The translations under genes and the position numbers were made by a program. A stretch of 40,382 nucleotides of DNA from positions 1 to 40,382 of the forward strand of contig CAMNSU010000014.1 in assembly GCA_946555455.1 (NCBI GenBank). The letters run 5' to 3'. Below are positions 802-31,232 of this stretch, one piece after another; position 1 is the first letter of the stretch, and each line of letters starts with the position of its first letter. The notes below the pieces were generated by a model, which ran no database searches, was not told where the DNA came from, and saw only the letters and a list, made by a program, of their open reading frames with translations. This DNA is from an uncultured Clostridia bacterium (GTDB lineage Bacteria > Bacillota > Clostridia > RUG12999).

Positions 802-1392
802 TCAATCATTTGTTTCGCCTGTGATTCGTTGAATCCCTTTTTCAAGACTTGCAGCATCCAGCATTCCGTTGGCATAGGTAACAAGATTTCCGTTTCTATC
901 AATAAAAAAGGTAGCCGGTAAGCCTGAAATATAATAAGCGGAAACGGCCTGCTGCGTTTTGTCAAAAAATACCGGAAAAGTAAAGCCTTGCTCTGCGATA
1001 TAGTCTTTGGCAATCTGTTCAGTTTCCCTCTGACCGTCGGTGGCGTTGACCATCAGAAATTGCACGTCAGGATATTTTTGATATGCTTGGTTGAAATCAG
1101 GCATTTCCTCTTTGCAATAATAGCACCAAGTTGCCCAGAAATTGAGTACAACAGGTTTACCCAAATAATCCGACAGTTTCACGTCATTGCCGTCGGGCGT
1201 GGACACGGTGAAACCGGGAGCGGCATAATCAGACGACGCTCCGTCAGACGAGTTATCAGTTTTATCGGTTTGATTTTCAGCGAGTTTGTCGGGCGCATAG
1301 GTTTTACTCAAAGAACTATATAAAAAATAGGCGCCTGTAAAAAGCAGCACGGTACATACAATGCCGGCAATCCATAAAATATTTTTTTTCAT
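802..1392 (-). CDS. TlpA/ResA-like membrane-anchored thiol-disulfide oxidoreductase
   Basis: The protein (196 residues) has an uncleaved N-terminal membrane anchor (about residues 5-28), a polar linker (30-56) and a TlpA/ResA-type thioredoxin fold facing outside the cytoplasm. The redox motif is W-C-Y-Y-C at about residues 89-93, and the cis-proline region (SGLPATFFID) is intact. Such proteins reduce or shuffle disulfides of exported proteins, using electrons passed by CcdA. The start is set at the ATG that aligns with the starts of two other genes sharing the same leader; an ATG one codon earlier (1395) and an in-frame ATG at 1404 also exist. It lies downstream of ccdA in the same direction, with an unusual pseudoknot-like leader in the 80-base gap. 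Confidence 0.9.
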   Translation of the reverse strand: MKKNILWIAGIVCTVLLFTGAYFLYSSLSKTYAPDKLAENQTDKTDNSSDGASSDYAAPGFTVSTPDGNDVKLSDYLGKPVVLNFWATWCYYCKEEMPDFNQAYQKYPDVQFLMVNATDGQRETEQIAKDYIAEQGFTFPVFFDKTQQAVSAYYISGLPATFFIDRNGNLVTYANGMLDAASLEKGIQRITGETND

Positions 1393-1465
1393 CATAATAT
1401 CCATAGCCTTTCCGCCCACAAATTAGGAATCAAAACGTTCTTATCGTGGGCGGATAAGACGTTAA
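1390..1465 (-). promoter_or_regulatory. Pseudoknot-like leader element, copy 1 (before tlpA)
   Basis: On the minus strand AACGTCTTAT (1463-1454) pairs with ATAAG-A-ACGTT (1444-1434, one bulged A) around a 9-base loop CCGCCCACG (1453-1445). The loop is fully complementary over 8 bases to GTGGGCGG (1419-1412), immediately followed by the ribosome site GAAAGG. The sequence from TAACG to the start codon is strongly conserved with copies at 5044-5126 and 7055-7136. Here the element is intercistronic, between ccdA and tlpA. An RNA regulator that masks the ribosome site is inferred. Confidence 0.65.
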
Positions 1466-1472
1466 ATTCCTC

Positions 1473-2135
1473 CTACGAAAGAATGGCAAGGAACTTGCCC
1501 AAAAGTCCTGTCATCATCAAAATGCCAACCAAAACGAGCAGTGAACCGCTGACAATATTGATAACTTTATAGTTTCGCTTAATAAACGCAAACGTATTTT
1601 TGAGTTTGTCAATCAAAATGGCGCTTACCAAAAACGGTATGCCGAGCCCCAAAGAATATAACAATAACATCAGCACGCCGGTGAGCGCATGACCCTGCTG
1701 GGAAGCGAGCATGAGAGCAGAACCGAGAAAAACGCCTACACAGGGCGTCCAGCCGATGGAAAACACCATGCCGAAAAGCACAGCTGAAAAAAAGCCGAGA
1801 TTTTTTTTGTCCATAGACCGGTTGATGCCACCAAACAAGCGAACCTTAAAAACACCAAGAAAATGCAGACCGAAAAAAATCACAATCACTCCTGTGACAA
1901 TATTAACAGCGGTTTGATATTCCTTCAGCAATCCGCCGAGTGTTCCTGCCAGCGCGCCCATTGCGACAAACACGATTGTGAATCCTGCCTCAAATCCAAG
2001 TGCATTTTTAATGGTTTTGGCAGTGGTTCGCTCTGTATCGCCTGCAAAATAAGACACATAGATTGGCAGCATGGGCAGCAGGCATGGTGAAATAAAAGTG
2101 ATGATTCCTTCCAAAAAAGCAATAAAATATTGCAT
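1473..2135 (-). CDS. ccdA: CcdA/DsbD-like thiol-disulfide transporter
   Basis: This is a polytopic inner-membrane protein of 220 residues with about six hydrophobic segments, the usual size for CcdA. It carries the two family cysteines: C18 in ISPCLLPMLPIYVSYFAG and C132 in the SIGWTPCVGVFLGSALM segment. CcdA proteins take electrons from cytosolic thioredoxin and deliver them across the membrane to a TlpA/ResA-type partner. The partner is the next gene, tlpA, and a thioredoxin gene lies at 5865 in the same island. The ATG start follows AAGGAGG. The promoter has a TGATATAAT extended -10 and a Crp/Fnr-type box upstream (2211-2252), so co-regulation with thioredoxin and ferredoxin is likely. Confidence 0.92.
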   Translation of the reverse strand: MQYFIAFLEGIITFISPCLLPMLPIYVSYFAGDTERTTAKTIKNALGFEAGFTIVFVAMGALAGTLGGLLKEYQTAVNIVTGVIVIFFGLHFLGVFKVRLFGGINRSMDKKNLGFFSAVLFGMVFSIGWTPCVGVFLGSALMLASQQGHALTGVLMLLLYSLGLGIPFLVSAILIDKLKNTFAFIKRNYKVINIVSGSLLVLVGILMMTGLLGKFLAILS

Positions 2136-2210
2136 AGGTCAGTCCTCCTTATGCGGTTTGTCCGCGGTAATTGCGCTTTAAAAACGGATTGGCAGGGCAA
2201 TATAACGTCT

Positions 2211-2252
2211 ATTATATCAGTTTTTTTCATTGAAATCTGTCATTATGTCACA
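2211..2252 (-). promoter_or_regulatory. ccdA promoter with Crp/Fnr-type box
   Basis: The minus strand has an extended -10, TGATATAAT (TATAAT at 2216-2211). Exactly 21 bases upstream is TGTGACATAATGACA (2252-2238), a one-mismatch match to TGTGA-N5-TCACA. The box centre falls near -41 relative to the expected start, the class II activator position. The same arrangement precedes trx and the ferredoxin gene. Confidence 0.65.
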
Positions 2253-2266
2253 TTCGTGCGGCAGAA

Positions 2267-2292
2267 ATTTTGCCATGTAAAGATTTTGCCAT
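2267..2292. repeat. Tandem direct repeat ATTTTGCCAT
   Basis: ATTTTGCCAT occurs at 2267-2276 and again at 2283-2292 (16-base period), between the divergent ccdA and DUF134 promoters. It may be a binding site for a tandem-binding protein, or chance. Confidence 0.3.
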
Positions 2293-2296
2293 TTGG

Positions 2297-2343
2297 TTAT
2301 TGACATATGTCAATAACTATGCTATGATTGATATATGTCATAA
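2297..2343 (+). promoter_or_regulatory. DUF134 gene promoter with perfect 20-bp palindrome
   Basis: A near-consensus sigma-A promoter is present: TTGACA (2300-2305), 17 bases, TATGAT (2323-2328), with an extended TGC before the -10. The -35 is embedded in the perfect palindrome TTATTGACATATGTCAATAA (2297-2316). A second imperfect copy, TGATATATGTCATAA (2329-2343), covers the expected transcription start. This layout indicates repression. The likely binder is the DUF134 protein itself, or another metal or redox regulator. Confidence 0.75.
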
Positions 2344-2402
2344 AAAATTATCATATCATATTCGCCGCAACGTGTCAAGAGAAGGTAGGAGAGGACGATT
2401 AC

Positions 2403-2762
2403 ATGCCGAGACCGAGAAAATGCAGAAAAGTATGTTGCTTGCCCAAATTCAATGAATTTCAGCCTGCCGGCAGAGTGGGCGAATGCGTTGTTTTGACCGT
2501 AGATGAATACGAATCCATTCGGTTAATTGACAACGAAGGGTTTTCACAGGAAGAATGTGCAGGATATATGCAGGTTGCCCGCACAACGGTTCAACAAATC
2601 TATAATTCTGCCAGGAGTAAAATCGCCAAAGCGTTAGTAGAGGGTGTTGGTATCCGTATTGAGGGCGGAGAGTATACTCTTTGCGACGGCAAGGAAAAAG
2701 AGTGCGGGTGCGGCGGCTGCCGTAGCCATCGTGGCAAGAGATGTGCTGATTCCTGCAATTAG
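2403..2762 (+). CDS. DUF134 (UPF0251) predicted DNA-binding protein
   Basis: This 119-residue protein matches the DUF134 family: N-terminal [14 protein letters not shown], then a central helix-turn-helix resembling sigma region 4 ([33 protein letters not shown]), then a cysteine-rich tail ([13 protein letters not shown] ... RCADSC). The N-terminal CRKVCC and the C-terminal cysteine cluster suggest metal or Fe-S binding (inference). The ATG at 2403 is chosen for its ribosome site (GGTAGGAGAGG) and the conserved family start; upstream in-frame starts lie in the promoter. DUF134 genes are commonly next to NifX/NifB-like small proteins, as here. It may autoregulate through the palindrome at its promoter. 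Confidence 0.85.
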
Positions 2763-2846
2763 CGCCGTCCTGTCATCATAGAGGCGCCCGCAAGAGATTT
2801 TAGTGCGGCGGAAACGCAACAGCACGATATGGTAAAACAAGTCTAG

Positions 2847-2874
2847 TTTACTTGCCCATTAGGGCAGGTATAAG
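2847..2874 (+). promoter_or_regulatory. Candidate promoter of the NifX-like gene with operator in the spacer
   Basis: TTTACT (2847-2852), 16 bases, then TATAAG (2869-2874). The spacer is filled by the inverted repeat TGCCC-ATTA-GGGCA (2853-2866), which would place a regulator between -35 and -10. The gene could also simply be read through from the DUF134 promoter, since no terminator lies between them. Confidence 0.4.
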
Positions 2875-2885
2875 AGAATCGAATA
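2866..2885 (-). repeat. Dispersed TAGGCA-type repeat, partial copy A
   Basis: The minus-strand sequence TATTCGATTCTCTTATACCT matches 19 of 20 bases at 31212-31231. It lacks the outer inverted arm seen in the other copies. It overlaps the -10 of the candidate promoter at 2847-2874. Confidence 0.5.
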
Positions 2886-2912
2886 TTATCATATAAAAAG
2901 GAGACAGATAAC

Positions 2913-3326
2913 ATGAAAATTGCAGTAACGTATGAAAACGGACAGATATTTCAGCACTTCGGTCATACCGAACAGTTTAAACTCTACCATGTGGAAGATG
3001 GAAAAATTCTTTCCGCCGAAATCGTGGATACCAATGGCAGCGGACATGGTGCGCTTGCGGGTCTGCTTTCGGCGCTCAAAACAGATGTGTTGATTTGCGG
3101 CGGCATTGGCGGCGGCGCACAAATGGCTTTGGCGCAGAGTGGAATCCGGCTTTTTGGCGGCGTCAGCGGCGATGCTGATAAAGCAGTGGAAAGTTTTATT
3201 GCGGGAAATTTGGCATATGACCCTGAGGCAAAATGCGACCACCACGACCATCAACACGGCGAAGGACATACTTGCGGCGACCATGGCTGCGGAAGTCATA
3301 ACTGCGGAGAACATAGCTGTCATTAA
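2913..3326 (+). CDS. NifX/NifB-type iron-molybdenum cluster-binding domain protein with His/Cys tail
   Basis: Residues 1 to about 105 form a dinitrogenase iron-molybdenum cofactor domain (MKIAVTYENGQIFQHFGH ... CGGIGGGAQMALAQSGI). These small proteins bind Fe-S or Mo-Fe clusters, and many occur outside nitrogen fixation. The last 30 residues are an unusual metal-binding tail rich in His and Cys (HHDHQHGEGH, CGDHGCGSHNCGEHSCH). The ATG is preceded by AAAAAGGAG. No nitrogenase genes are present in the window, so a role in Fe-S or metal trafficking is more likely than nitrogenase assembly. The upstream DUF134 gene is a plausible regulator. Confidence 0.87.
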   Translation: MKIAVTYENGQIFQHFGHTEQFKLYHVEDGKILSAEIVDTNGSGHGALAGLLSALKTDVLICGGIGGGAQMALAQSGIRLFGGVSGDADKAVESFIAGNLAYDPEAKCDHHDHQHGEGHTCGDHGCGSHNCGEHSCH

Positions 3327-3330
3327 AGGA

Positions 3331-3371
3331 AAACCACACCCGCGCTTCCCCAAGCACAGGTGTGGTTTTTG
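3331..3371. terminator. Bidirectional terminator between convergent genes
   Basis: AAACCACACC (3331-3340) pairs with GGTGTGGTTT (3359-3368) and a T-run follows. On the opposite strand the hairpin ends in a short T/C-rich tract. It serves the NifX-like gene and probably the CoADR-rhodanese gene. Confidence 0.75.
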
Positions 3372-3375
3372 CTGA

Positions 3376-5046
3376 TTATTTGCATTCTGTGCAGATATAT
3401 TCAGGGACAGTGCATTCATGCATGACCGATTCATAAAGCCGCCATCCGCCCGCAAGATTATAGCAGTCATAACCGTTGCCCGCCAGAATACGGCAGGCGA
3501 TATAACTGCGAAGCCCGCTGTGGCAATGAACATATACAGGTTTATCTTTGGGAAGTTCGCTGAGGTGTTCTCTGAGAGAATCGAGTGGAATATTGATAAA
3601 TCCGTCTATTTTACCGCGGCGCACCTCCGTCACGGTACGGACGTCGAGCAGGGTCACGCTTCCGTCGCGCGGAAGCGTTTCCACGTCGTGCCAGAAAAAT
3701 TGCTTGATTTTTCCGGTAACGATATTTTCCGCCACAAACCCCAACATATTAACAGGGTCTTTTGCGCTGCCGAAGGGCGGTGCATAGCAAAGTTCAAGCG
3801 TGGCAAGGTCAGTGATTTTTGCGCCGAAGCGGATGGCACTTGCCAGCACATCTAAACGCTTGTCCACACCGTCAAAACCGACAATCTGTGCGCCGATGAT
3901 ATGCAGCGTTTTTTTATCCCACAAAACTTTTAAAGACATGTTTGTGCCACCGGGATAATAAGAGGCGTGAGACGCGGAATAGGTATAGGTTTTATCGTAG
4001 TCGATACCGGCTGCCGCTGCGCTTTTTTCGTTCAATCCGGTTGTCGCAACTGTCATATCAAAGAGTTTTAAAATGGCGGAACCTTGCGTTCCGGTATAGC
4101 CGGAAGAAAATCCTGCAATATTGTCTGCGGCAATACGTCCCTGTTTATTTGCAGGACCGGCAAGCGGAATAAAGGCAGGGGATTTGGTGATGAAATCTTT
4201 GACTTCCACAGCATCACCTACGGCATAGATGTGTGGGAGATTGGTGCGCATTTGCGGGTCAACAATGATGCAGCCACGGGCATTGGTTGCAATGCCGCAT
4301 TCCTGCGCCAGCGCTGTTTCGGGACGGACGCCCACAGATAGAATGATACAATCGGATTCGATTTCGCCGTTTTGCAACATGACACGATTGCCGCTGATAG
4401 CAGTGACACCGTTGTTCAGATAGAGCTCTATTCCTTTTTCTTTGATATATTGATGCACATCAGCCGCCATATCAAAATCAAGCGGCGCGATGAGATGGTC
4501 AGCGAGTTCGACAATCGCGACGTCAAGCCCTGCTTCTGTTAAGTTCTCAGCCATTTCAACGCCAATATATCCGCCGCCTACAACAACGGCTGATTTCGGT
4601 TTTGCTGTTTCAATATATTCCTGAATGTTCAGCGTGTCGGGAATGGTGCGAAGTGTGAACACGTTATTGCTGTCAATACCACTAATGTTTGGTTTGATAG
4701 GCTCGGCACCGGGAGACAAAATGAGATGGTCATACTGTTCCTGATAGGTGTCGCCTGACACTAGATTTTTCACTGTGACAGTTTGTGCGGTCGGGTCAAT
4801 TTTCACCGCTTCGTTCTGAACGCGCACATCAATATGAAATCTTGCCTTGAAGCTCTCGGGCGTTTGCAGCGTCAGGGCATTACGGTTGGTTATCGTACCG
4901 CCAATATAGTAGGGTAGACCGCAATTGGCAAAAGAGACATATTCACCGCGTTCTAAAATGATAATTTCTGCGTTTTCATCTAGTCGGCGGAGTCGGGCTG
5001 CCGCAGATGCACCACCGGCAACACCGCCTATTATAATAGTTTTCAT
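3376..5046 (-). CDS. CoA-disulfide reductase/NADH oxidase-type flavoprotein fused to rhodanese
   Basis: The protein (556 residues) starts with an FAD Rossmann motif (IIIGGVAGGASAAARLRR). It has the single active-site cysteine of the CoA-disulfide reductase/NADH oxidase family at about residue 43 (SFANCGLPYYIGG), a second nucleotide-binding motif (VVVGGGYIGVEMAENL) and a dimerisation domain. A C-terminal rhodanese domain (about residues 455-540) carries the persulfide-forming Cys in HCHSGLRSY. CoADR-RHD fusions reduce CoA-disulfide, CoA-persulfide or polysulfide with NAD(P)H. The start is moved to ATG 5046, where the family begins (MKTIIIGG); an in-frame ATG in the leader (5058) is conserved in all three leader copies. 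A few extra cysteines close the protein (HECTVPEYICTECK). Confidence 0.92.
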   Translation of the reverse strand: MKTIIIGGVAGGASAAARLRRLDENAEIIILERGEYVSFANCGLPYYIGGTITNRNALTLQTPESFKARFHIDVRVQNEAVKIDPTAQTVTVKNLVSGDTYQEQYDHLILSPGAEPIKPNISGIDSNNVFTLRTIPDTLNIQEYIETAKPKSAVVVGGGYIGVEMAENLTEAGLDVAIVELADHLIAPLDFDMAADVHQYIKEKGIELYLNNGVTAISGNRVMLQNGEIESDCIILSVGVRPETALAQECGIATNARGCIIVDPQMRTNLPHIYAVGDAVEVKDFITKSPAFIPLAGPANKQGRIAADNIAGFSSGYTGTQGSAILKLFDMTVATTGLNEKSAAAAGIDYDKTYTYSASHASYYPGGTNMSLKVLWDKKTLHIIGAQIVGFDGVDKRLDVLASAIRFGAKITDLATLELCYAPPFGSAKDPVNMLGFVAENIVTGKIKQFFWHDVETLPRDGSVTLLDVRTVTEVRRGKIDGFINIPLDSLREHLSELPKDKPVYVHCHSGLRSYIACRILAGNGYDCYNLAGGWRLYESVMHECTVPEYICTECK

Positions 5047-5126
5047 AAAAATATCCATCGCCTTTCTGCCCACAAATTAGGAATAAAAAAATCCGAACGT
5101 CCTTATTGTGGGCGGATAAGGCGTTA
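5044..5126 (-). promoter_or_regulatory. Pseudoknot-like leader element, copy 2 (before the CoADR-rhodanese gene)
   Basis: Minus-strand AACGCCTTAT (5125-5116) pairs with ATAAGG-A-CGTT (5106-5096) around the loop CCGCCCACA (5115-5107). The loop complements GTGGGC (5073-5068) just before GAAAGG. Compared with copy 1, one stem pair changes from U-A to C-G, a compensatory change. The element occupies most of the gap between this gene and the divergent Crp/Fnr gene, so the promoter of the leftward gene probably lies inside or next to the start of the regulator gene. Confidence 0.65.
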
Positions 5127-5155
5127 CCTCTTTTCTGAAAGGAGTCTCATGCAAA

Positions 5156-5827
5156 ATGGAATGGACAATGTTTGAACCGATATACCAAGAAATATTTCCG
5201 TTTTGGAAAGAAATCTCGGAAAAAGACAGGGAATATATCTGCCGGCATTCGACGGCTTTGCCCTATCCCAAAGGCGCCGGCGTTCATGACGGCAATGAGT
5301 GTTCCGGCGTGATTTTTGTCCGCTCCGGCTGCCTGAGGGTTTATATCATGTCCGAAGAAGGCAAAGATATTACGCTTTACCGCTTGCATAAAGGAGATAT
5401 GTGTATGCTTTCCGCTTCCTGTGTCTTGCAGAGCATTACCTTTGATGTGTTGATTGACGCAGAAGAGGACAGCGAATGCTATGTCATCAGCGGAGCCGCC
5501 TATGCCGCCGTGTCGGAACGCAATCCAAGTATTAGAATATTTACGCTGGAAACAGCAGTCAGCCGTTTTTCCGATGTCATGTGGGTCATGCAGCAAATTC
5601 TTTTTATGAGCATGGACAAACGGCTTGCTATTTTTTTGCTGGACGAAGCGGCGAGGACGGGAGCGGACACGATTGCACTCACGCACGAACAGATTGCCAG
5701 ATATATGGGTTCTGCCCGTGAAGTGGTGACAAGAATGCTGAAATATTTTGCAAATGAAGGGATCGTTCAAGTATCGCGCAAAGGCGTGAAGCTTTTGGAT
5801 AAAAAACGCCTGCGCAGCCTAGCCTGA
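5156..5827 (+). CDS. Crp/Fnr-family transcriptional regulator
   Basis: The protein (223 residues) has an N-terminal cyclic-nucleotide-binding-type beta barrel (about 15-125, with SGVIFVRSGCLRVYIMSEEGKD and KGDMCMLSASCVLQ), a long dimerisation helix, and a C-terminal winged helix with the recognition segment LTHEQIARYMGSAREVVTRM. It lacks the N-terminal cysteine cluster of oxygen-sensing Fnr, so the signal is not an Fnr-type 4Fe-4S cluster. Several internal cysteines could be redox sensors (inference). The ATG at 5156 follows GAAAGGAG by 11 bases. It sits amid redox genes, three of whose promoters carry TGTGAC-type boxes at the class II position, so it is their likely activator. Confidence 0.9.
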   Translation: MEWTMFEPIYQEIFPFWKEISEKDREYICRHSTALPYPKGAGVHDGNECSGVIFVRSGCLRVYIMSEEGKDITLYRLHKGDMCMLSASCVLQSITFDVLIDAEEDSECYVISGAAYAAVSERNPSIRIFTLETAVSRFSDVMWVMQQILFMSMDKRLAIFLLDEAARTGADTIALTHEQIARYMGSAREVVTRMLKYFANEGIVQVSRKGVKLLDKKRLRSLA

Positions 5828-5864
5828 CGTTTCCAATTTAAACACCGATTCGATTTTCTCCGGT

Positions 5865-6173
5865 CTATTCCTGCAGCATTGCAAGAATCTGCGGTTTTGG
5901 TTTTGCACCGACGGATTGATTGACAATTTTTCCGTCTTTCATCACCGCCAGCATGGGAATGCTGGAAATACCAAAGGCGCTTGCCAGTTCCGGTTCGCTG
6001 TCTACATTGATTTTGCCCACAAAATATTGTGGATTTTCCTCTGCAATTTCGTCTACCAAAGGCGACACCATTCTACAGGGACCGCACCAGTCGGCATAGA
6101 AATCAAGAAGCACCGGTTTATTACTGTTTTTTGCTAAATCAAAATTGTTTTTGGTAAGTTCTACTACTGTCAT
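5865..6173 (-). CDS. trxA: Thioredoxin
   Basis: A 102-residue classical cytosolic thioredoxin with the W29-C-G-P-C33 active site, D24 inside FYADWCGPC, and the cis-proline loop (GISSIPMLAVMKDGK). It reduces protein disulfides with electrons from thioredoxin reductase and would be the natural electron donor for CcdA at 1473. The ATG start is preceded by AAAGGAAG. It is transcribed toward and converges with the Crp/Fnr gene. Its own promoter (6257-6298) has a near-perfect Crp/Fnr-type palindrome, so it forms a separate unit from the ferredoxin operon upstream. Other trxA copies may exist elsewhere in the genome. Confidence 0.95.
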   Translation of the reverse strand: MTVVELTKNNFDLAKNSNKPVLLDFYADWCGPCRMVSPLVDEIAEENPQYFVGKINVDSEPELASAFGISSIPMLAVMKDGKIVNQSVGAKPKPQILAMLQE

Positions 6174-6256
6174 GGTTTATTTCTTCCTTTCTTTTTGTCA
6201 ATTACAGGGAAATCTCTTTGTTTACTACCTAAAAAGGAGGTATTGTTTCTGTCTTT

Positions 6257-6298
6257 AGTATAACCTATTAGTCTATCATTTTCTGTGACAAAGTCACA
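6257..6298 (-). promoter_or_regulatory. trxA promoter with Crp/Fnr-type palindrome
   Basis: TATACT (minus strand, 6262-6257) is preceded after exactly 21 bases by TGTGACTTTGTCACA (6298-6284), a perfect inverted repeat TGTGAC-N3-GTCACA. There is no good -35, as expected of an activator-dependent class II promoter. The box overlaps the stop codon of the upstream gene. Confidence 0.7.
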
Positions 6299-6863
6299 TT
6301 TTTTTCGCTTTGCAGATAAGCTGCGTCATCGTTCCCATGGGACAATATACACACCAGGAGCGCGGTTTGCACAAAATCATGGTAATCAATCCAAGGACGG
6401 TGGAGGTGAGCATGACACTGTAAAAACCGAAAGCAAACTGTGCCACTCCGTCTGAAAACAGCGTACCATGATAAGACCAATGCCACGGCACTTTTAATGT
6501 CCACAGCAAGGTTACGACTGTGGTCAAATTTTTTGCGCCGTCAAACACTAAATAGGTGTTCCAAAGCATTAGAAAAAACATTGCAAAAAAGAAAATTAGA
6601 AATCCATATCGGAAATAGCTTGATTTCATCCAACGCGGAATGTCTTTCTTTCGGGAAAGACCGAACTTGCCACCAAGGAGAGAAAACAACTGTCCTCTGC
6701 CGCAATATTTATTGCAGTATGCTTTGTTGCCTTTTACGATGGAGATAATCAGCGGTATAAAGAAGCAAAGCAGTCCCAGCCAGGCGAACAAAATATTGAA
6801 AAAGCCTAAAATAAGATAGGTAAGCGAGACAATCCAAAGATAATCATACCACTTTTTTTTCAT
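6294..6863 (-). CDS. Membrane Fe-S-type protein (NapH/YccM/CcoG-like)
   Basis: This 189-residue protein has about four membrane segments. Two cysteine pairs at membrane borders (CNKYCGRGQLFSLLGG and WCVYCPMGTMTQLICK) resemble the CxxxC(P) motifs of NapH, NosR C-terminal and YccM-type electron-transfer proteins. Those proteins usually carry their own 4Fe-4S ferredoxin domain; here that domain is absent and is supplied by the separate ferredoxin gene just upstream. The start (ATG 6863) overlaps the ferredoxin stop as ATGA and follows GGAGGTGC, so the two are translationally coupled. It probably passes electrons between a membrane donor and the ferredoxin (inference). Confidence 0.75.
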   Translation of the reverse strand: MKKKWYDYLWIVSLTYLILGFFNILFAWLGLLCFFIPLIISIVKGNKAYCNKYCGRGQLFSLLGGKFGLSRKKDIPRWMKSSYFRYGFLIFFFAMFFLMLWNTYLVFDGAKNLTTVVTLLWTLKVPWHWSYHGTLFSDGVAQFAFGFYSVMLTSTVLGLITMILCKPRSWCVYCPMGTMTQLICKAKKM

Positions 6864-7057
6864 TTTTCCAGCACCTCCAATGTGATAATGCTTGCAGGAC
6901 ATTCTTGGACGCATTTCCCGCAGCCAACACACAACGCGTGGTCAATCTCGGCGTTGATGCCGAAAGGAATTTTGATTGCTGCCCGCGGACAGACTTTTGC
7001 GCAGCAGCCACATGCAACGCATTCACTTTCATGGATAACAGCTTTTCGTTTTATCAT
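6860..7057 (-). CDS. 2[4Fe-4S] ferredoxin
   Basis: A 65-residue ferredoxin with two clusters: CVACGCCAKVCPRAA and CVGCGKCVQECPASI, both complete CxxCxxCxxxCP motifs. It is a small cytosolic electron carrier or cluster-binding subunit. The start at 7057 is chosen by alignment with the other two genes that share the same leader; a longer in-frame reading from ATG 7069 exists. It forms a two-gene operon with the membrane protein downstream. Transcription probably begins near 7243 from a promoter with a Crp/Fnr-type box, giving a leader of about 185 bases that contains a dispersed repeat and pseudoknot element copy 3. Confidence 0.92.
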   Translation of the reverse strand: MIKRKAVIHESECVACGCCAKVCPRAAIKIPFGINAEIDHALCVGCGKCVQECPASIITLEVLEK

Positions 7058-7136
7058 AACAATATCCATCACCTTTCTGCCCACAAATTAGAAATGAAAA
7101 ATCTAAGCGTCCTTACTGTGGGCGAATAAGACGTTA
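7055..7136 (-). promoter_or_regulatory. Pseudoknot-like leader element, copy 3 (before the ferredoxin gene)
   Basis: Minus-strand AACGTCTTAT (7135-7126) pairs with GTAAGG-A-CGCTT (7116-7105) around the loop TCGCCCACA (7125-7117). The loop complements GTGGGC (7084-7079) next to GAAAGG. Two stem pairs are G-U here where copies 1 and 2 have Watson-Crick pairs, which suits RNA better than a DNA operator. The downstream ATGGATATT segment is conserved too. Confidence 0.65.
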
Positions 7137-7182
7137 CATGAATATTTATGCCCATCTGCATTTTCATAGAAGGCGAAAAAAG

Positions 7183-7210
7183 TAGGCATATTCAACTTTT
7201 GTTTGCCTTA
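7183..7210 (+). repeat. Dispersed TAGGCA-type repeat, copy E
   Basis: TAGGCATATTCAACTTTTG followed by TTTGCCTTA. The left half matches the copy at 31206 and the right half matches the copies at 11169 and 21981 in inverted orientation. It lies in the ferredoxin leader. An inverted repeat TAACGT/ACGTTA follows at 7209-7228. Confidence 0.55.
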
Positions 7211-7249
7211 ACGTGATTTTTTACGTTATTTCCTCCTGCCTTTTCTAGC

Positions 7250-7292
7250 AGTATATCAAAAACAGAGGAAATGGTTCAGTGACTAGGTCACC
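7250..7292 (-). promoter_or_regulatory. Ferredoxin operon promoter with Crp/Fnr-type box
   Basis: The minus strand has an extended -10, TGATATACT (TATACT at 7255-7250). After 22 bases upstream comes GGTGACCTAGTCACT (7292-7278), with perfect arms GTGAC-N3-GTCAC. Position and spacing match the ccdA and trxA promoters. Confidence 0.65.
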
Positions 7293-12814: not shown

Positions 12815-12866
12815 ATAAAAACCCCTTCGGCATATGTTATAAAACATATGCCGAAGGGGTTTTTAT
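12815..12866. terminator. Bidirectional terminator with 24-bp perfect stem
   Basis: Positions 12815-12838 and 12843-12866 are perfect reverse complements around an ATAA loop. The A-run and T-run flanks let it work on both strands, for the GNAT gene and the convergent membrane-protein gene. The 12689-12814 stretch before it holds only a small GGGG-TG-CCCC hairpin and no gene. Confidence 0.93.
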
Positions 12867-31153: not shown

Positions 31154-31205
31154 TGTTTTTTTTCAGAATGCAAATTTTTCGCCTGTCCGTATCATAAGAT
31201 AGCAG

Positions 31206-31232
31206 TAGGCATATTCGATTCTCTTATGCCTA
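31206..31232 (+). repeat. Dispersed TAGGCA-type repeat, copy B (perfect terminal arms)
   Basis: TAGGCATA (31206-31213) and TATGCCTA (31225-31232) are perfect inverted arms around TTCGATTCTCT. It lies just upstream of the DUF4830 gene, between divergent units. Confidence 0.6.

Follow-up and report, generated by a model that had tools for sequence, protein, structure and literature searches.

A shared leader on three genes of a redox cluster

The window analysed here, 40,382 nucleotides (nt) of contig CAMNSU010000014.1 from an uncultured Clostridia bacterium, holds a redox gene cluster at positions 802-7084 that comprises tlpA and genes for a DsbD/CcdA-type membrane protein, DUF134 and FeMo-Co-type proteins, a CoADR-rhodanese, a Crp-type regulator, a thioredoxin, a Fer4_5 membrane protein and a ferredoxin. 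Three of these genes carry the folded leader element that is the subject of this work, and Pfam identifies them as tlpA (AhpC-TSA/Redoxin), CoADR-rhodanese (Pyr_redox_2 and Rhodanese) and 4Fe-4S ferredoxin. A preliminary description of the window had proposed that these leaders share a set of motifs, a hairpin and a pseudoknot. The motifs (TAACGYCTTAT, YCGCCCAC, AAGRACG, CTAATTT, GTGGGCRGAAAGG and ATGGATATT) are all found at the claimed places on the minus strand of the three copies, and the hairpin, with its bulged A and a stem position reading U-A, C-G and U-G, can be seen by eye across the three. The leaders align over about 100 columns with a mean column identity of 84%, and GTGGGCRGAAAGG and ATGGATATT are the first two direct-repeat families (D1 and D2) of the window's repeat list. 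Within the window, exact GTGGGCRGAAAGG occurs at the three leader sites only; allowing up to two mismatches gives 7 matches against 1.89 expected, a number reached by 1 of 100 shuffles. The ferredoxin copy reaches to about position 7237 and is longer than first described. Window positions 31204-31231 repeat 28 nt of this leader (7181-7208, the P0-P1 region defined below) at 79% identity (family D11), perhaps as a remnant.

The core of the element is an H-type pseudoknot, in which the loop of a hairpin, P3, carries GCCCAC and pairs with GUGGGC directly upstream of GAAAGG, a Shine-Dalgarno (SD) sequence that we call SD2. An outer helix, P2, pairs an upstream AAUAUCCAU with AUGGAUAUU, located between GAAAGG and the start codon. 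By eye, long copies add two further 5' hairpins, P1 (with an AU bulge on the 3' side of its stem) and P0 (AACGUG-loop-CACGUU). The first structural proposal was right in its hairpin and pseudoknot and too small in extent, having overlooked P2 and the optional P1 and P0. Short copies, such as those of tlpA and the CoADR-rhodanese gene, begin at P3 and probably derive from deletion between the TTAACG repeats of P0 and P3.

A family of folded elements in gut Clostridia

A covariance model built from the three window leaders (R1), in which the pseudoknot pairs were entered as a nested helix, found a fourth copy in the window's genome (G000) with an expectation value (E) of 1.1e-20, far above chance, and returned 16 rows there in all, 13 of them with E <= 8.8e-6; building a three-copy model and searching with it, as suggested at the outset, did uncover more copies. 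A second model (R2), made from 38 sequences, pairs only P2 and P3 and leaves out the start codon. It gave 13 sense rows in the same genome with E <= 9.4e-6, one of them decayed; the genome holds about 13 clear copies. In the decayed copy (L015, C1:87803-87898) the pseudoknot arm is broken, and no convincing gene follows. The element is near-palindromic overall and yields antisense echoes in model searches. In the assembly HAN068 (G391), 119 R2 rows less 37 antisense echoes leave 82 places in about 2.5 Mb. For the census of positions in HAN068 we chose 65 of these 82 places (63 rows to E 4.7e-10 and two weaker), one of which had no retrieved sequence, giving 64 copies and setting aside 17 weaker places together with the 37 echoes.

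A strict pattern (GCCCAC, a gap and TGTGGGCAGAAAGGYTATGG, with the stem and outer arms left free) found 116 copies on 113 stretches in 48 assemblies of a genome collection, including Ructibacterium gallinarum, many assemblies titled Clostridia, Ruminococcus, Eubacterium or Oscillospiraceae, and a few titled 'bacterium' or Bacillota; these titles point to Clostridia as the class. Under strict filters, which make both counts lower bounds, R2 was positive, at E 0.001, in 42 of 391 genomes from the window's class and, at E 0.0001, in 1 of 398 genomes of a phylum sample, namely the window's own. Rfam 15 at curated thresholds gave no match in the window or in 20 other element-bearing loci, and permissive Rfam scans, one of them of window positions 1300-7250, returned nothing credible at the elements, in line with the initial view that no known RNA class was recognisable. 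The leaders belong to a family of small folded RNA elements in gut Clostridia, without an earlier database match. One permissive Rfam match, V_AS7 at window positions 4859-5027 (78.8 bits, below the threshold of 90), lies inside the CoADR gene on the opposite strand and probably reflects shared protein-coding sequence.

Covariation of the pseudoknot and helices

Pairing was examined in an alignment of 48 rows (42 sense rows and 6 antisense echoes) made by R2 without the pseudoknot pairs; 39 of the sense rows came from R2 searches and three (L025, L040 and L047) from R1. Over P3, the pseudoknot and P2 together, 23 of 26 pairs have changed on both sides, with a covariation score of 0.348 against 0.149 for shuffled and 0.042-0.069 for slid controls. 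Both-sided changes occur at all 11 pairs of P3 and at 3 of the 6 pairs of the pseudoknot, 97.9% of whose cells are paired. Because the alignment was fitted to P2 and P3 and not to the pseudoknot, the counts for these two helices lean upward. By eye, the pseudoknot strands vary in concert as GCCCGC/GCGGGC, GCCUAC/GUAGGC, GCCAC/GUGGC, GGCUCAC/GUGAGCC and GCUCAC/GUGAGC. The pseudoknot changes of L032 and L042, which have no R2 match, were likewise read by eye.

Free of any alignment, the two arms of P2 pair at 7 of 7 positions in 65 of the 116 pattern copies, while swapped arms do so in 17.6 on average and 29 at most (1000 shuffles). The arms of P2 are complementary in 48 of 49 HAN068 copies against 21.9 when swapped, in rows found by a model that itself holds P2. 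P0, which stands in no model, has complementary outer triplets in 25 of 35 HAN068 copies against 10.4 when swapped (maximum 17 in 2000 swaps). The pseudoknot and the hairpin, as first proposed for three copies, are real, and a conserved, covarying fold adjoins the ribosome site, as would be expected of a riboswitch. Several HAN068 copies (L239, L245, L247, L274 and L296) hold a GC-rich insert of about 80 nt in the P0 loop, counted as 6 by eye and 4 of 64 by a strict string, which is perhaps a nested second repeat. The tlpA leader of a second genome of the genus, G002 (L311), has extra sequence between P3 and the 3' strand of the pseudoknot relative to the window copy.

Position before start codons and a split ribosome site

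The element stands at a fixed distance from gene starts. An open reading frame (counted if at least 40 codons long or cut by the contig end) begins 11-18 nt downstream of GAAAGG in 115 of the 116 pattern copies, 75 of them at exactly 14 nt, whereas starts of frames of at least 40 codons fell within a window of 8-25 nt at 500 of 2320 random positions. The exception, L128, is the first of two tandem elements and has no gene start of its own; the second element of this tandem is lodged at the 3' end of the first. Among the R2 loci of the class search, found by a model holding no start codon, a start is present in 28 of 29, at 14 nt in 16; the remaining locus (L187) has GAAGGG in place of GAAAGG, and its start was seen on separate inspection. 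A start follows 61 of the 64 HAN068 copies, one of which (C62:1791) is doubtful, having TTG at an odd distance. The other three comprise a weak copy (C3:5415) and two that, by eye, lie beside an apparent SD and start of an opposite-strand gene. Of the 64 HAN068 copies, 62 have GAAAGG beside the pseudoknot, as do 28 of the 29 class-search loci.

A further SD sequence, which we call SD1, lies upstream of many copies. Among copies with a detectable P0-like hairpin (43 of 64 in HAN068 and 72 of 110 pattern elements), an SD-like tetramer occurs 4-15 nt upstream of the final triplet in the 5' arm of P0 in 31 of 43 and 54 of 72, respectively, compared with 2 of 43 and 6 of 72 in a window 30 nt further up. 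In the short tlpA and CoADR copies of the window, the SD stands directly before P3. The gene's own SD is usually found upstream of a structured spacer that precedes the start codon, the arrangement of the split initiation regions of phage T4. Ten copies sit at the same gene in both G000 and G002. By eye, SD1 is present in both genomes at five of them (tlpA, CoADR, the solute-binding protein, the FeoB-associated protein and L013) and in G000 only at ferredoxin, and it is not clear at four, including ruvA and a hydrolase. Since SD1 was not clearly seen at these four, we infer that it is not strictly kept and that SD2 must work at least there. No SD1 was seen by eye at ruvA, the S33-type hydrolase gene or rdgB of HAN068, where SD2 seems to suffice.

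Target genes

The preliminary description had read the three leaders as a riboswitch or RNA thermosensor on functionally linked genes, answering a thiol, persulfide or metal signal, and this part was not supported by the census. Further targets in the window's genome are mnmE and ruvA, rhaA, genes for an extracellular solute-binding protein, a FeoB-associated Cys-rich protein, a short-chain dehydrogenase, an S33-type hydrolase and an AraC-type regulator, and two genes without a Pfam match. Targets in HAN068 include a glutamate-cysteine ligase relative, argR, recN, purC, an aconitase family member, ilvD, murG, a translational GTPase relative, queC and cmk (several being fragments below the curated cut-off), as well as genes for a Clp ATPase, apt and rdgB. 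No common pathway or metabolite was found among the targets of these two genomes. With further copies of the window's genome on mnmE, ruvA, rhaA and others, there is no thiol regulon, and a thiol or persulfide riboswitch was rejected as a general reading.

Probable dispersal and empty sites

Against the 82 places in HAN068, its 20 sampled relatives (G395-G414) have 0-3 R2 rows each, 11 of the 20 at least one. A copy's nearest neighbour in sequence lies in the same genome in 57 of 88 cases, against a mean of 11.9 and a maximum of 25 after shuffling; this likeness would fit repeated spread inside lineages. Empty sites were sought by comparing HAN068 with its relative G395. Querying 40 genes gave 17 rows in about 0.8 Mb of the about 2.5 Mb of G395; after L082 and L150 (below 30% identity), L055 (36%) and L071 and L246 (alignments from residue 31) were set aside, 12 remained. 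Each of the 12 comparable orthologues in G395 is free of the element over 200 nt and has its start preceded by an SD-like tetramer; identity to the HAN068 gene is 64-93% for 11 of them and 51% for one. The glutamate-cysteine ligase (gshA) relative, for example, reads GAGGTGATTGGAC-TTG in G395 and GAGGTGATTAAC-GTG...element...TTG in HAN068, and the genes for the Clp ATPase, cmk, ilvD and apt show the same contrast between empty and filled sites. By eye, 10 or 11 of the 12 HAN068 genes compared have an SD-like site upstream of the element, and rdgB has none. Precise element boundaries are not fixed by this comparison, because the spacers of G395 differ from those of HAN068. Closer to the window, mnmE carries a copy in the window's genome and none in G001 of the same genus, although the proteins are 90% identical. 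The element is therefore multi-copy and patchy, with both occupied and empty orthologous sites, as expected of a mobile repeat.

Matches to Y1 transposases occur in 7 of 14 genomes searched, with five matches in HAN068 itself and others in G392, and one or two reverse transcriptases occur in each of G000, G001 and G002. Overall, the occurrence of element copies follows neither that of Y1 transposase genes nor that of reverse transcriptase genes. A Y1 transposase beside element ends was rejected, as none of the searched motifs lies in L338, L345, L347 or L349 (four of the HAN068 Y1 matches), and so was a derivative of reverse transcription or a group II intron, as the draft genome with most copies has no RVT_1 match. 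Carriage by phages was dropped, with a single viral stretch bearing the pattern.

Discussion

Taken together, we judge it fairly probable that the leaders are copies of a non-coding dispersing element of about 75-190 nt that forms a pseudoknotted RNA, is lodged in sense orientation between SD1 and the start codon, and brings its own SD2 to replace the split ribosome site. Copies would arise by movement: the element would insert between the gene's SD1 and its start codon, splitting the ribosome-binding site, after which SD2, mostly 14 nt before the start codon, would take over initiation. SD2 would then be the working ribosome site and the fold would tune its use; the fold may be retained because it is needed for the use of SD2, for mobility, or for both.

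How the fold might act is suggested by an anti-SD strand, GCCUU, within P3, which could pair either with the P3 3' arm, leaving SD2 free, or with SD2, masking it; the P3 3' strand, AAGGRC, resembles SD2. When folded without a pseudoknot, four of four copies tested place SD2 inside a long hairpin with GCCUU:AAGGC and GCCCAC:GUGGGC in their minimum-energy folds. Since the same GCCUU lies in the P3 5' strand, P3 and the SD2-masking state would be mutually exclusive. The exchange between P3 and the masking helix, P4, is offered as a hypothetical translation switch, because P4 shows one-sided changes only. The nested SD-masking hairpin as the sole structure, preferred by RNAalifold and RNAfold, was rejected because P3 covaries at all of its pairs and P4 is one-sided. 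A conserved leader peptide starting from GUG in P0 was judged unlikely because, by eye, the P0 loop varies in length and some copies lack the start codon.

Several observations weigh against a dispersing element that replaces the ribosome site. (i) With respect to function, P4 shows no both-sided change; moreover, with P2 placed between SD2 and the start codon, the complete fold would be expected to hinder the use of SD2, and copies nevertheless sit on genes such as cmk and murG. (ii) With respect to spread, the closeness of HAN068 to its sampled relatives (G395-G414) is not given. When HAN068 is excluded, the nearest neighbour is from the same genome in only 21 of 52 cases, and an identical pair (L051/L066) is possibly one locus assembled twice. 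Ten copies are common to G000 and G002, and movement there is therefore old. (iii) With respect to mechanism, no target-site duplication, base-exact boundary or mobilising enzyme was established. Y1 transposases had no match in the copy-bearing G000, G001, G002 and G393 (drafts, in which past presence is possible), the draft genome of HAN068 has 0 RVT_1 matches, and viral contigs hold the strict pattern on one stretch only.

An unlikely alternative is that the element acts solely at the DNA level, like IS200/IS605 or REP sequences, with hairpins read as single-stranded DNA, a fold that serves transposition only, and a position before starts that reflects target choice. The hairpins and near-palindromic whole, the burst of copies alongside element-free sites, and the Y1 matches in HAN068 and in 6 of 13 other genomes searched would all suit such an element. 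Against it stand the sense orientation before the start codon in nearly all examined copies, an SD at fixed spacing, the lack of a Y1 match in the four copy-bearing genomes named above, and the absence of the searched element motifs around four HAN068 Y1 matches.

Rather unlikely, in our view, is a split ribosome site in which SD1 continues to serve the start codon while the folded element is looped out, in the manner of T4 genes 25 and 38, and in which the fold persists because it renders the insertion harmless. Most copies with a detectable P0 do have SD1 upstream, every segment folds into a hairpin, the outer pairs of P0 match copy by copy, and a structured spacer has a precedent in T4 (PMC3014915). 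SD1 is nonetheless seen in both genomes at only five of the ten common copies and not at rdgB of HAN068, short copies leave about 20 unpaired nt from the pseudoknot to the start codon, and a looped-out element has no need of a near-invariant SD2.

The least probable of the three is an ordinary but large family of riboswitches or protein-binding leaders with slow recruitment, whose ligand or protein partner would stabilise the pseudoknot and govern SD2: the strong covariation of P2, P3 and the pseudoknot, GAAAGG beside the latter, the possible SD2-masking fold and the ten copies kept at the same gene in two genomes of the genus all agree with it, yet targets without a shared function, 82 places in HAN068 against the few rows of its relatives and the high similarity of copies within a genome are unlike a regulon.

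Returning to a dispersing element that brings its own ribosome site, a stronger version can be envisaged, which we regard as doubtful though worth stating: a self-spreading RNA control cassette that would recognise the gap between SD and start codon, as DNA or as ribosome-bound mRNA, lodge there and give genes a new foldable ribosome site, placing dozens of unrelated genes under a common fold in a short evolutionary time. If such an element exists, unrelated genes have a route to gain shared translational control at once, and nature has performed a test of the tolerable separation between SD and start codon. It would also raise the question of what machinery singles out translation-start sites for insertion, and start codons and leaders would need to be annotated with care in many gut Clostridia.

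The preQ1 classes are SD-engaging pseudoknot riboswitches, and the element resembles them in having a pseudoknot adjoining the ribosome site; it differs in its lack of an Rfam match, its many unrelated targets, the extra helix P2 and its dispersal. Promoters and terminators are known to reach genes on transposable elements. Short non-coding interspersed hairpin repeats, such as miniature inverted-repeat transposable elements, REP/RAYT, Rickettsia palindromic elements and pneumococcal BOX/RUP, are similar in kind, but here no target duplication was found, the site is the gap between SD and start, and compensatory changes keep a pseudoknot. We know of no family that lodges specifically between SD and start codon with the ribosome site inside a covarying pseudoknot.

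Closest in the literature are the mobile/repeat sequence candidates (MRSC) of the Breaker laboratory, such as MRSC-65-2, a structured motif with dozens of copies per genome that is read as selfish (PMC11109978). MRSC-65-2 spans diverse phyla with a UYCCGG repeat and is near a transposase gene in some cases, and inconsistent orientation is named there as a sign of mobility (PMC11109978); the window element instead keeps a fixed orientation and start-codon distance and is confined to one class in our samples. The split initiation regions of T4 genes 25 and 38 likewise place structured RNA between SD and start codon, but as the native hairpin of a phage gene (PMC3014915), whereas the element described here is repeated and pseudoknotted, has an SD of its own and sits on dozens of genes. 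The T4 gene 60 gap and the mitochondrial byp elements of Magnusiomyces, of which the mitochondrion has 81 instances, are also gene inserts tolerated by a solution at the RNA level; both interrupt coding sequence, where elongating ribosomes bypass them (PMC5009743), while ours lies before the start codon. The portion of PMC8040213 available to us contained nothing resembling the element. No recognised description of such an element emerged from the literature search, which lay outside supplements and most subscription journals, where an unnamed motif is possible.

Feature coordinates in the window

Table 1. Positions of the three leader copies, their ribosome sites and start codons in the window.
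Feature	Position	Strand	Basis or remark
SD1 of tlpA (AGGAGG)	1469..1474	-	upstream of element; overlaps stop codon of DsbD/CcdA-type gene; same layout in G002
tlpA copy, P3 5' arm	1454..1463	-	alignment, covariation
tlpA copy, pseudoknot 5' strand GCCCAC	1446..1451	-	alignment, covariation
tlpA copy, P3 3' arm	1435..1444	-	alignment, covariation
tlpA copy, pseudoknot 3' strand GTGGGC	1414..1419	-	alignment, covariation
tlpA copy, SD2 (GAAAGG), element-borne	1407..1412	-	alignment
tlpA copy, P2 3' arm ATGGATATT	1396..1404	-	no matching P2 5' arm, short form
tlpA start codon	1393..1395 (or next ATG 1390-1392)	-	
SD1 of CoADR-rhodanese gene (AAAAGAGG)	5127..5134	-	upstream of element
CoADR copy, P3 5' arm	5116..5125	-	alignment
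CoADR copy, pseudoknot 5' strand	5108..5113	-	alignment
CoADR copy, P3 3' arm	5097..5106	-	alignment
CoADR copy, pseudoknot 3' strand	5068..5073	-	alignment
CoADR copy, SD2 (GAAAGG)	5061..5066	-	alignment
CoADR copy, P2 3' arm (short form)	5050..5058	-	
CoADR-rhodanese start codon	5044..5046	-	
SD1 of ferredoxin gene (AGGAGG)	7232..7237	-	upstream of element; weakened in G002
ferredoxin copy, P0 hairpin AATAACGTA...CACGTTA	7209..7230	-	P0 outer pairs covary in HAN068
ferredoxin copy, P1 hairpin TATGCC...GGGCATA	7147..7190	-	by eye
ferredoxin copy, P2 5' arm	7138..7146	-	covariation
ferredoxin copy, P3 5' arm	7126..7135	-	alignment, covariation
ferredoxin copy, pseudoknot 5' strand	7118..7123	-	alignment, covariation
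ferredoxin copy, P3 3' arm	7107..7116	-	alignment, covariation
ferredoxin copy, pseudoknot 3' strand	7079..7084	-	alignment, covariation
ferredoxin copy, SD2 (GAAAGG)	7072..7077	-	alignment
ferredoxin copy, P2 3' arm	7061..7069	-	covariation
ferredoxin start codon	7055..7057	-	

Elsewhere in the window, positions 12815-12866 hold a perfect 24-bp inverted repeat with a 4-nt loop (I4), which is probably a terminator.

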